Positions 4,499 through 24,327 of a stretch of 25,012 bases of DNA are shown here, in pieces; within the stretch, counting starts at the first letter, position 1; the number at the start of each line of letters is the position of its first letter. Source of the DNA: a virus; the IMG/VR virus record IMGVR_UViG_3300017728_000102, positions 1 through 25,012 of that record. The stretch is one strand, 5' to 3'. The translations under genes and the position numbers were made by a program. The notes beneath the pieces were generated by a model. That model searched no databases and had not been told where the DNA came from. It saw only the letters and a list, made by a program, of their open reading frames with translations.

Positions 4499-4684
4499 CT
4501 AATCTATCTCCACTAAACCCATCATAAATGCCTTGTTTAATTTCATTATTAATTCTGCAATTTTATGTGAGTCAATTTCAAAGACATCAAATTCTAGTCT
4601 ATAGTTACCAGTAGTTTTAAGGTTGCGAATACCTACCAGTTCAGTAGTTATTGCAATTCCTTCCTTACTTTTTTCTTTTGACAA
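4499..4684 (-). CDS. conserved-looking small protein of unknown function
   Basis: Up to 61 residues, with a lysine-rich start, a beta-like middle (NYRLEFDVFEID) and a helical end. I recognise no family. The longest version begins at TTG 4684 and overlaps the upstream 29-residue basic gene by 20 nt. The ribosome binding site for that start is weak. AAGGAAGG lies inside the first codons, so a later non-standard start (for example the ATA codon 33 nt downstream of that TTG) is possible. The stop abuts the ATG of the terminase small-subunit candidate. It is the second gene of the packaging operon; function unknown. Confidence 0.55.
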   Translation of the reverse strand: MSKEKSKEGIAITTELVGIRNLKTTGNYRLEFDVFEIDSHKIAELIMKLNKAFMMGLVEID

Positions 4685-4754
4685 TTTTTTTAGTCATCTT
4701 ACGTTTCTTCTTTGGTTTCGCTTTACCAAAGCCGTAACCTTTACCTTTAGGCAT
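4665..4754 (-). CDS. 29-residue Lys/Gly-rich basic peptide
   Basis: A very small gene from ATG 4754 to TAA 4665. The peptide begins MPKGKGYGFGKAKPKKKRK and continues Lys-rich to the stop, with almost no acidic residues. The start has AAGGAG nine bases upstream, the best ribosome binding site in this stretch, which is why I call it despite its size. It overlaps the next gene by 20 nt and is the first gene after the regulatory gap at 4755-4941. Such peptides probably bind nucleic acid. A role in DNA condensation or packaging is inference from charge and position. Confidence 0.6.
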   Translation of the reverse strand: MPKGKGYGFGKAKPKKKRKMTKKIVKRKK

Positions 4755-5386: not shown

Positions 5387-5408
5387 AAAAAGCCCCATTT
5401 AAGGGGCT
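5387..5408 (-). terminator. intrinsic terminator
   Basis: AGCCCC (5391-5396) and GGGGCT (5403-5408) form a perfect 6-bp GC-rich stem with a 6-nt loop. On the minus strand the stem runs into TTTTT. It lies 19 nt after the stop of the gene at 5428-5670. Confidence 0.85.
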
Positions 5409-20475: not shown

Positions 20476-21527
20476 TTTAGATACTCTGCCGCTTCATAAG
20501 GGTTAAAGATTGTAGTTATTTTTCTGTTATCATCATCAGAATATTTAGGGTCTATTATCGTAACTGGACAATTAAAAATATTCTTATCATCTAGTCCTAA
20601 TCTGTTTGCATATTCATCCATTCTTTTAAAAGATGCAACTTGTAAGGCATGAGAAATTAACCCTGAAGCTGGGTCTTTTAAAACTTGATAGCCAGAAACA
20701 TGAGTATGTCCAGCGGTTACTATGTGGTCTCTCCATCCCATCTGAATAGCTTTACTGACACCATGAGCAGAGTTCCACATGGAGTTTCCTTTAAAAGTGT
20801 GTCTAGCATTAACTCTTACAGATGATTTATTAGGAAAGTTTAAATTAAGTCTTACTCCATGATTTGCATAAGTGGTTCTAGTGTTACCTCTCATTATAAA
20901 CTCTATAGGGTCACCATCTCCTGACCATACATCATGATTTCCACCTACTAAATAAAGCCAAGGAAGTTTATTTAAAAAGTATTCTGTTAACTTCCATGAT
21001 TCTTTAGCAGTTGTACTTTGTTGACTATATAAAGCCGCTAGTCTACCTACCCAGTTGTTTTGAATGTCTCCAAGATTTCCAGCAAACATTCCTTCTGTAT
21101 TCTTAATAACATCACATATTCCAAACAATTCACCTAAGTCTGTTCCATCATCATCAACATGAGGGTCACCAAAATGACAGATTCCTATTACACCATCTAT
21201 TTTTATATTAACATGAGTTAAATTATAATATTCTTGAACATTATTTTTAATTTTAAACTTTTTAACTCTGTACTTAATAATATCATCAACATTCATTTCA
21301 GGTTCAGGTCTTAGGTCAGAAACTTCAAAAGAACTTTCTTCTTTTAATTCTAGTGCATTTGTAAAAACAGAAGAACACTCATTACATTTATATCTCTGTT
21401 TTGCTTTTTTATTTTTTAAATGTTGAACACCAGCCCTGACTAACCTTGGTGATAAACATTGGGGGCAACCTATTAAGACATTGTCTTTAGTTTTAAAAAG
21501 TTTTGTAATATCATCTCTTTTAATCAT
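20454..21527 (-). CDS. metallophosphoesterase with N-terminal zinc ribbon
   Basis: A 357-residue fusion. Residues about 18-55 form a zinc ribbon (C21, C24, C48, C51) like that at the start of many transposases and DNA-binding proteins. After it comes a calcineurin-like phosphoesterase: GDPH with D121 and H123, GD at 153-154, GNHD with N197 and H198, H243, and GHTH at 273-276, the set of metal ligands needed for a two-metal site. The family cleaves phosphodiesters or phosphomonoesters, including nucleases, so nucleic-acid targeting by the ribbon is plausible. It lies between the lysozyme-like and connector genes, an odd place for an enzyme. Substrate unknown. Confidence 0.87.
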   Translation of the reverse strand: MIKRDDITKLFKTKDNVLIGCPQCLSPRLVRAGVQHLKNKKAKQRYKCNECSSVFTNALELKEESSFEVSDLRPEPEMNVDDIIKYRVKKFKIKNNVQEYYNLTHVNIKIDGVIGICHFGDPHVDDDGTDLGELFGICDVIKNTEGMFAGNLGDIQNNWVGRLAALYSQQSTTAKESWKLTEYFLNKLPWLYLVGGNHDVWSGDGDPIEFIMRGNTRTTYANHGVRLNLNFPNKSSVRVNARHTFKGNSMWNSAHGVSKAIQMGWRDHIVTAGHTHVSGYQVLKDPASGLISHALQVASFKRMDEYANRLGLDDKNIFNCPVTIIDPKYSDDDNRKITTIFNPYEAAEYLKWKRSQK

Positions 21528-22002
21528 TTATAATATCCTTGAAATGTTTAATAGTTCCAGCCCCTTTCTCAGTATTATAATATTTTTTCCAATATAAAGC
21601 CTGTTCATCTATTGTTTTAGGAAGTTTTTTAGGGACTCTCCAATAATGCAATCTACAAAATACTATTTGAGCAGTAATGTTTGTTGTGAGAATGTTTTTC
21701 CAATCATCTTTATTAGGTTTAATAAAATATTTTAAATCTAGATAACAGACTTCTGCAACTTTTTTCATTAAAGATTCTCTATATTGCAGATAGTCCTTAC
21801 AAACAGAAACTGCAACCCAAGGTTCACATTGAAAAAACCCCCTAGCAACATTAGTTCCTCCTTTCTGCATTAAATATTTATATCTAGACTCAACTAGACC
21901 AGTATTATAAATAAGCATCATAGCATCATGCGAATAGTATTTTTCCCCTAAAGATTCTAATGTTTCTTTAATTAATACATACATTTGTAATGTGTATATC
22001 AT
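21520..22002 (-). CDS. lysozyme-like / transglycosylase-like protein
   Basis: A 160-residue protein with TGLVESRYKYL (E38 candidate catalytic glutamate) and GFFQCEPW, a pattern seen in lysozyme-like phage proteins where the Glu of an ESxY segment and a GFFQ.EP motif mark the active-site cleft. No signal peptide or membrane segment. It would cut peptidoglycan, either for lysis or as a virion enzyme for entry. It lies next to the lysis-like membrane genes and before the connector genes, which leaves both options open. It starts at ATG 22002 with AGGAGGTC and ATGA overlap. Confidence 0.68.
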   Translation of the reverse strand: MIYTLQMYVLIKETLESLGEKYYSHDAMMLIYNTGLVESRYKYLMQKGGTNVARGFFQCEPWVAVSVCKDYLQYRESLMKKVAEVCYLDLKYFIKPNKDDWKNILTTNITAQIVFCRLHYWRVPKKLPKTIDEQALYWKKYYNTEKGAGTIKHFKDIIND

Positions 22003-22397
22003 CTAGACCTCCTGACTTTTCTAGCCGTTTTCCTTGAATATTTAGCTTTTTGTTTTCCTTTTGCAGTAGCTTTTCTTTTCTTTCTATTTTCATAAGCTTT
22101 CTGACTAGGTGTTAACTTCTTCCTAACTGACTCAGGTAAATATCTACCTCTTTTGGCTCTTGGTTTTTTTACATCACTTTTTGTAATATAACCCCATTTC
22201 TGTTTTGACCATTTAGATAAAGAGTTTTTACTAGACTTTTTACCTCTATACCCACCACCAGCCTTCTTATATCTCTGAACTGCTAATTGACTTTTCCTTG
22301 CAGACCATTGACCTTTTCTTCCTCCCTTATTACTAGACTTAACAGAAGAGACAATTCTTTTCCATAATTTAGGTTTAGTTTTGACTGATGTAGCCAT
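21999..22397 (-). CDS. very basic protein, DUF5872-like
   Basis: A 132-residue protein in which roughly 40 percent of residues are Lys or Arg, with almost no acidic ones. The central region SKWSKQKWGYI, then GRYLPESVRKKLTPSQKA and NRKKR, resembles the DUF5872 family found in aquatic phages and large viruses. A basic, tail-like C-terminus follows. The charge suggests nucleic-acid binding or a structural role with packaged DNA. It overlaps the lysozyme-like gene by ATGA. No enzyme motif. Function unknown; resemblance to DUF5872 is from memory and not a search. Confidence 0.7.
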   Translation of the reverse strand: MATSVKTKPKLWKRIVSSVKSSNKGGRKGQWSARKSQLAVQRYKKAGGGYRGKKSSKNSLSKWSKQKWGYITKSDVKKPRAKRGRYLPESVRKKLTPSQKAYENRKKRKATAKGKQKAKYSRKTARKVRRSR

Positions 22398-22711
22398 TAA
22401 CTACCTTTTTTCCATTTCATAGACTTAGACTTAGTCTTACTAGGACTCCATTTAACACGATTTGACCAATAAGCCGCACTACTCTTACCCTTTGCAATTG
22501 ACTTAGCATGGCGAGATTTAAACGCTCTTCTTTGACCTACTGTCTGATTAGTCCTTACCTTCTGTTGACCAAATCTAATTAATTTAGTCTTCATTTTACC
22601 TGACTGTTTAAATTTAGCCAAAACAACATGGCTTTTAGTCTTATGTCTAGGCGTTTTTTTAGGTTTGTTATATCCCTTTAAGCCAAATCTTTTTAGTCTA
22701 GGGTCTTTAAT
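22397..22711 (-). CDS. basic MKDPRLKR-type phage protein, ATT start
   Basis: A 104-residue basic protein. The conventional annotation would start at TTG 22621 (74 residues), but the frame is open upstream to a TAA at 22727-22729 and reads KDPRLKRFGLKGYNKPKKTP, TKSHVV, then IRFGQQ. That matches the N-terminus I know from aquatic phage proteins of this type, which usually begin MxDPRLKRxGVxGFNKPKRTP. No ATG, GTG or TTG lies before that motif. AGGAG is placed seven bases before ATT 22711, so ATT is the likely start. The C-terminal RHAKSIAKGKSSAAYWSNRVKW is the other hallmark. Function is unknown; DNA binding is plausible from charge. Confidence 0.78.
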   Translation of the reverse strand: MKDPRLKRFGLKGYNKPKKTPRHKTKSHVVLAKFKQSGKMKTKLIRFGQQKVRTNQTVGQRRAFKSRHAKSIAKGKSSAAYWSNRVKWSPSKTKSKSMKWKKGS

Positions 22712-22713
22712 AT

Positions 22714-22890
22714 TTAGACTCCTAATTTAGTGAGTAAGACTTTTTTTATTATTTTCCAAAGTGCTTCTAATATTGCTTTTTCAGTTTTTTCACTAATTAT
22801 AGGTATATCTATAGATTTATTTAATTCTGCAATTAATTCATCTTTTGTTTCATTACCTAACAATTCATTTGCTATCATTTTTTTTAACAT
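22714..22890 (-). CDS. small helical protein in lysis-like cassette
   Basis: A 58-residue protein starting at ATG 22890, chosen because GAGG precedes it and the stop of the upstream gene overlaps it (TAATG). A longer in-frame version to 22953 lies inside the upstream gene and is not favoured. The peptide is helical: MLKKMIANELLGNETKDELI, then an amphipathic AILEALWKIIKKVLL end. Its last codons (GGAGTC) hold the ribosome binding site for the ATT-start gene. The hydrophobic end may contact membrane; no clear span. Function unknown. Confidence 0.65.
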   Translation of the reverse strand: MLKKMIANELLGNETKDELIAELNKSIDIPIISEKTEKAILEALWKIIKKVLLTKLGV

Positions 22891-23458: not shown

Positions 23459-23773
23459 CTATTTTCTCCGCTTTTTACCCCAACTTAATGGGTTAATATT
23501 TTTTTCATACCACGCTACTTTTTCTGCCAAGACCTCTCTTTCAGTCCTCTCTTCCACGATGTGTTTATTAAGTAAATCCCCAATGCGTTCATCTGCATTA
23601 GCAAAGTTTGTTTCAAGTGTTCCCAGTCTAGTCTCAATCCTATAGTAACCATAGACGAGAGTGCCAACAAGAATAAGAATCTGACCAAACCACTTAAGGT
23701 TAATACTGACAATAGCATTGTCATCCACAATACCACCTCTATAACTTCTAGCAGTTTTGACTTCTTCACTCAT
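23459..23773 (-). CDS. membrane-anchored coiled-coil protein, spanin-like candidate
   Basis: A 104-residue protein from ATG 23773. A 10-residue longer form is open but lacks a good site, and the chosen start overlaps the lipoprotein gene by ATGA with AAGGAAAAG upstream. One membrane span at about 26-44 (LKWFGQILILVGTLVYGYY) is followed by a charged coiled coil (ETRLGTLETNFANADERIG, EERTEREVLAEK). Next to a lipoprotein this could be the inner-membrane half of a two-component spanin, but the lysis role is inferred and the cytoplasmic N-terminus is longer than usual. Confidence 0.65.
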   Translation of the reverse strand: MSEEVKTARSYRGGIVDDNAIVSINLKWFGQILILVGTLVYGYYRIETRLGTLETNFANADERIGDLLNKHIVEERTEREVLAEKVAWYEKNINPLSWGKKRRK

Positions 23774-23997
23774 CTTTTCCTTACTATTTCCCACCTTGAG
23801 CAACTAAAGCACCACATATCCCTATTGAACCTAATATGGTCATTATAAAAATGACTTATAGAATCTTCACTAACCACCTCAACAAAAGTATACATAGAAT
23901 CTTCAGGTGTTGGATTCATATTTCCTACCGACCACCCATTTGAACAACTACTTAACATAAATATACTTAACCCTAATCCCATAACTCGTATTAACAC
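23770..23997 (-). CDS. small lipoprotein, outer spanin candidate
   Basis: A 75-residue protein that begins with a classic lipoprotein signal: a short hydrophobic h-region (VMGLGLSIFML) and lipobox LSSC with the cysteine at residue 18. The mature part is about 58 residues with two further cysteines near the end (WCFSCS). The start is GTG 23997 with AAGGA upstream; the ATG at 23982 has none. It overlaps a membrane-anchored coiled-coil gene by ATGA, the arrangement of Rz/Rz1-type spanin pairs, but it is not proline-rich. An alternative is a superinfection-exclusion lipoprotein. Confidence 0.68.
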   Translation of the reverse strand: MLIRVMGLGLSIFMLSSCSNGWSVGNMNPTPEDSMYTFVEVVSEDSISHFYNDHIRFNRDMWCFSCSRWEIVRKR

Positions 23998-24033
23998 TTT
24001 CTTTTTCCTTTGTTTTTAGTTTAAATCTTCTTT

Positions 24034-24327
24034 TCATATTACCATCCATAATGCCATAGATGTTTCTACAAATAAGTCAGATGCGGTATTATATGCCCAT
24101 CGTTTATTAGTCCCATAAGTCCGAGCAGTACCCTCAACAAACACCTCAAATACTTCCCACAAAACTCCTATAATAAAAACTCCCATGACACACCAAAAAT
24201 CACTCCAGTTCATCCATTGAAATATCTTACAAAAAAATGCACCAGCACCAATATGGTATGCAGTCCACCCATCAAGTTGTCCTGTTTTTAATTGCCAAGA
24301 TACTAGCTTAGATAGTGGGTTGTTCAT
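24034..24327 (-). CDS. multi-span membrane protein of unknown function
   Basis: A 97-residue protein with about three hydrophobic segments: near 25-38 (YHIGAGAFFCKIF), 44-63 (FWCVMGVFIIGVLWEVFEVF) and the C-terminus (LFVETSMALWMVI). The YHxGAG, GVLWEVFE and SDLFVE pattern is reminiscent of VanZ/DUF2279-like membrane proteins. Starts with an ATGA overlap on the previous gene and lies at the head of the lysis-like run. Could be a holin by size and position; not proven. Confidence 0.65.
   Translation of the reverse strand: MNNPLSKLVSWQLKTGQLDGWTAYHIGAGAFFCKIFQWMNWSDFWCVMGVFIIGVLWEVFEVFVEGTARTYGTNKRWAYNTASDLFVETSMALWMVI

Follow-up and report, generated by a model that had tools for sequence, protein, structure and literature searches.

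The minus strand of IMG/VR virus record IMGVR_UViG_3300017728_000102 (25,012 bases, 32% G+C; hereafter the window) raises the question of whether a small phage protein is translated from an AUU codon. The frame between TAA 22729-22727 and TAA 22399-22397, the latter being the stop of the gene in question, reads IRSLNIKDPRLKRFGLKGYNKPKKTP..., and its upstream stop is followed by ATT AGG AGT CTA AAT ATT AAA GAC. Between that stop and the conserved motif of the protein we found no ATG, GTG or TTG, the first canonical start being TTG 22621 (Table 1). The original prediction placed the start at ATT 22711, and when the sequence was re-read its coordinates, its motif, the missing canonical starts and the well-spaced AGGAG all proved correct. 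We consider initiation at this AUU, with a Shine-Dalgarno (SD) sequence and probable coupling to the gene upstream, to be the best reading of the locus and a probable one.

Table 1. Positions of the features around the proposed AUU start in the window.
Feature	Position	Strand	Remarks
Basic-protein gene read from ATT	22397..22711	-	104 codons + TAA; phrog_7595
Proposed AUU initiation codon	22709..22711	-	Present in the window and L001-L005
Shine-Dalgarno AGGAG	22719..22723	-	7 nt before ATT; predicted -6.8 kcal/mol
29 codons KDPRLKRFGLKGYNKPKKTPRHKTKSHVV	22622..22708	-	Lost with a TTG start; conserved, under purifying selection
TTG, start expected from automatic callers	22619..22621	-	Lacks a Shine-Dalgarno; falls within the beta strand predicted at residues 27-36
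Upstream 58-aa gene (MLKKMIANELLG...LGV)	22714..22890	-	Stop TAA 22716-22714 is 2 nt from ATT; likely partner in coupling
In-frame TAA closing the basic-protein frame upstream	22727..22729	-	Blocks fusion via a -1 slip on the upstream gene's A-run
Weak predicted hairpin	22701..22724 (ends approximate)	-	Shine-Dalgarno in 5' arm, AUU in loop
Next gene, second basic protein (132 aa)	21999..22397	-	Overlap with the ATT-started gene is TAATG

Read from ATT, the product comprises 104 residues, of which 34 are Lys or Arg and one is Asp or Glu, giving a computed pI of about 12. It matched the phrog_7595 profile with an E value of 3.8e-24, residues 3-89 aligning to positions 5-96 of 96, and relatives were found at 57 IMG/VR loci and in 38 phage records, many of the latter being Roseobacter phages, cobaviruses and cyanophages. 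The N-terminal motif of the family (G, N-PK-TP-H, SH-V) is present and corresponds in alignment A1 to invariant columns G10, N15, P17, K18, T20, P21, H23, S27, H28 and V30, so that 10 of the 21 invariant columns lie before TTG 22621. The part upstream of the TTG is thus genuine phage family sequence, as had been proposed. Members of phrog_7595 in cobaviruses, cyanophages and Roseobacter phages share this motif; those whose starts were read use ATG or GTG, in contrast to the ATT of the window gene. In an AlphaFold model built from alignment A2, which holds no rows from phage records (mean pLDDT 76.9), the first long strand spans residues 27-36, and a start at TTG 22621 would therefore cut a predicted strand. 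Searches with the basic protein returned only matches below the cut-off in Pfam, none in NCBIfam and a single chance-level match among PDB sequences, and no relative was confirmed in the cellular genomes searched. The predicted model had no match at E<=0.001 in a PDB fold search; viral fold matches exist, none with a known function. At the DNA level there was no match to named phages. Separately, Roseophage SIO1 (NC_002519.1) encodes a phrog_7595-family member at 24071-24304 that is unannotated in its record.

The codons before the TTG carry the mark of translation. Between the window and the related contig L003 these 29 codons show 6 synonymous changes (17.8 sites) and 1 nonsynonymous change (69.2 sites), and between L003 and L005 the counts are 5 and 0 (Fisher p about 2e-4 for each pair, the p-values not being independent as the pairs share history). 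This is strong purifying selection at the protein level, acting in genomes where a canonical start for the segment is missing. Since the 29 codons are constrained and account for about half of the invariant residues, initiation at TTG 22621 would strip the protein of a conserved segment. Pairing with the anti-SD is predicted at -6.8 kcal/mol for ATT, within the range of the phage's other genes, versus -1.2 kcal/mol for TTG 22621. Among about 45 window genes examined, no other had conserved coding sequence reaching far ahead of the first canonical start; shorter conserved extensions at other genes are, on our reading, overlaps with the preceding gene or ribosome-binding sites, and we saw no wider use of noncanonical starts in this set. 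The claim that the N-terminus reaches ATT 22711 is supported. It was also anticipated that ordinary annotation would shorten the protein, and gene finders limited to ATG, GTG and TTG would indeed take TTG 22621, a systematic error that would drop a highly conserved protein part.

We compared start regions in every row whose 5' end was readable. ATT stands at the same place, without a canonical start, in five IMG/VR contigs from other metagenomes (L001-L005; 96-99% protein identity), and a second scan with the junction pattern recovered the same five contigs and none further. The window and L001-L004 read CTA AAT ATT AAA and L005 reads ATA ATA ATT AAA; the SD lies 7 nt from ATT in all six rows. 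The arrangement found here is an in-frame AUU that has an SD and opens conserved coding sequence with no canonical start ahead of it. Each remaining row offers an ATG or GTG, either no more than ten codons away or, in L049-L051, as an ATG at the first position of the motif. Outside the ATT group the closest relative is L006 (93%), which begins GTG CCA AAA. In L005 an ATA occupies the position of the relatives' GTG and may for that reason be a start. Comparison of homologous starts, which had been suggested as a check, thus gave ATT in the window and L001-L005 and ATG or GTG elsewhere; SD spacing, conservation and this recurrence support AUU as the likely initiator.

The upstream 58-aa gene is also conserved and shows purifying selection, with 9 synonymous and 1 nonsynonymous differences between the window and L003. 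Its stop overlaps a GTG start as TAGTG in L006, L032, L036 and L046; the window and L003 have TAA, 2 nt, ATT, and L005 has TAATA plus TAA, 2 nt, ATT. Stop and start therefore overlap or lie a few nucleotides apart throughout these relatives. As the upstream gene is conserved and this geometry is kept, translational coupling between the two genes is likely. In E. coli gene pairs with a 2-nt gap, losses of 5, 20 and 70% were found and reinitiation was still possible (PMC10666635). The same paper cites Hecht 2017 for an ATT efficiency in E. coli of about 0.3% of that of ATG, so output from the window gene may be very low. We rejected an RNA regulatory element at the junction: Rfam gave no match anywhere in the window, and the predicted hairpin, weaker in L005, did not outdo shuffled sequences (z -0.12 and -0.70). 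Nor was there a sign of extra constraint at the junction, as the 38-nt block identical between the window and L003 is exceeded by three longer blocks within the same 480 nt.

Several other accounts of the missing start were weighed. Single-contig metagenome sequences may carry base errors and ATT is one base from ATG, but it is barely credible that ATG or some other start was misread here in sequencing or assembly, because ATT recurs in five contigs from other metagenomes and the L003/L004 and L005 haplotypes differ from the window at many synonymous sites near the junction; an error at 22709-22711, against which the original prediction had cautioned, is thus contradicted. Initiation at TTG 22621, with the upstream 29 codons a decaying remnant, would make use of a canonical codon that is kept in L003, L005 and L006, the last of which also has its GTG. 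Against it stand the lack of an SD at this codon, the selection upstream of it inside the ATT group, the loss of half of the invariant residues and the cut strand, and we regard it as very improbable. The two frames are adjacent (-1) and the upstream gene contains an A-run (ATA AAA AAA), which would suit a -1 frameshift yielding a fusion protein with no separate start. In every haplotype, however, a slip on this run leads into the in-frame TAA 22729-22727, no obvious site for re-pairing is seen in the codons that follow the run (ACT AAA TTA GGA GTC), and the GTG and ATG relatives possess their own start; this route is very unlikely, and with its in-frame stop and no obvious slip site we rejected it. 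Initiation might instead occur at a neighbouring noncanonical codon, ATA in L005 or AAT in the window, with ATT as the second codon, given that both align with the GTG of L006. Yet AAT pairs with the initiator anticodon worse than ATT does, and ATT is the codon common to all six rows, at the same SD spacing in each, which leaves this variant rather improbable.

AUU initiation can be placed in an evolutionary sequence. In an unrooted protein tree one change suffices for the noncanonical state, and the six ATT rows form one clade with modest support (83/67). Because the nearest relative, L006, has GTG, the tree, though unrooted, suggests that GTG is ancestral. The ancestral start was most likely a GTG overlapping the upstream gene's stop (TAGTG); it would have been lost in one small phage clade, initiation most likely shifting to the ATT three bases on. 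We infer that this ATT is the actual initiator, helped by the AGGAG at 7 nt and by ribosomes that complete the 58-aa gene 2 nt upstream, and that the product would begin fMet-Lys-Asp and be made at a reduced level. Prokaryotic switches to AUU are rare, at 1 of 61,358 ancestral AUG and 1 of 5,080 ancestral GUG starts, and SD strengthening has been proposed as compensation for weak starts (PMC5622118). AGGAG in the window corresponds to AGGTT in L006 and AGGTG in L032; the apparently stronger SD of the window fits the compensation idea as a single case. With GTG, ATA/ATT and ATT at one start site, these close relatives make a natural comparison set, in which start-codon decay and its tolerance via SD and coupling become directly testable.

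The original prediction had further suggested a tie to levels of initiation factor IF3, and this link was not supported. The AUU could have been selected as a regulator, tying output to IF3 level or holding a harmful basic protein at low stoichiometry, an idea that overlaps with the explanation favoured above. Both infC and sigR, the latter with a GTC start, respond to IF3 (PMC5472188), elevated IF3 lowers initiation from noncanonical codons and also reinitiation without an SD (PMC2268962), although an SD is present at the ATT here, and ATT is retained in several haplotypes. Such persistence is, however, also expected of a merely tolerated change, and no IF3 gene was found in the window record and four relatives (five records, which may be fragments). 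Since the close relative L006 does without AUU, no regulatory need is apparent, and we consider the regulator idea unlikely. Tolerated decay of a GTG start would explain the data with less than IF3 regulation calls for. That selection keeps the AUU as a throttle, through upstream coupling and host IF3 discrimination, is quite unlikely; were it true, the strongly basic protein would be made in a low, fixed proportion to the other products of its operon, and phage output would follow the host's IF3 state.

Natural AUU starts have precedents to which the proposed AUU initiation in the window can be compared. Phage T4 gene 26* has an internal AUU start, and the AUU start of the mobile element IS911 is coupled to an overlapping upstream frame. 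The T4 case likewise places AUU in a tailed phage gene, but as an internal second start with a shorter product, whereas in the window AUU would be the full protein's only start. IS911 shares the AUU start as a mobile element; it also frameshifts, a route that the in-frame TAA blocks in the window. Its initiation at AUU was described by Polard 1991, as cited in PMC9523058. The Escherichia coli infC gene, encoding IF3, has a natural AUU start at which initiation is repressed by IF3 (PMC5472188); this gene is cellular and autoregulated, while the window gene, which shares the AUU start, belongs to a phage in whose record no IF3 gene was found and for which no feedback loop is evident. Another precedent is Staphylococcus aureus cvfC1, a 61-aa protein whose AUU start is conserved and preceded by a putative extended SD (PMC13009471); it shares small size, AUU and SD with the window gene but is chromosomal and proven by retapamulin profiling and reporters, the window gene being known from sequence. 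In a search of the open-access literature, outside which most subscription journals lie, no publication describing a phage gene started at AUU came up. AUU starts are already known as a kind, and the phage basic-protein gene adds a case with useful relatives.

Some further features of these genomes deserve record. An extra 57-aa gene (MKIKGVDLSGLTKRQVSAMRRHSKHHTAKH...) lies between the two basic-protein genes in relatives of the L003/L004 type (L003:3319-3492); the window is without it, its two basic-protein genes being joined by TAATG. In the window region 4499-4693 (minus strand) a gene at 4499-4684 has a weak SD and TTG as its only start; the preceding small frame overlaps it with its 3' end, an arrangement kept in two relatives. 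At 5388 and 6047 (minus strand) two listed ORFs have a better start site further downstream, AAGGAG and then ATG (IRSSKM), and because of this site the listed TTG and GTG starts are probably wrong. The 160-aa protein at 21520-22002 gave no alignment with the putative endolysin of CRP-13. Finally, at 23459-24327 (minus strand) a short lipoprotein-like ORF (23770-23997) sits beside small, apparently membrane proteins, and by eye this region looks like a lysis or spanin cassette.
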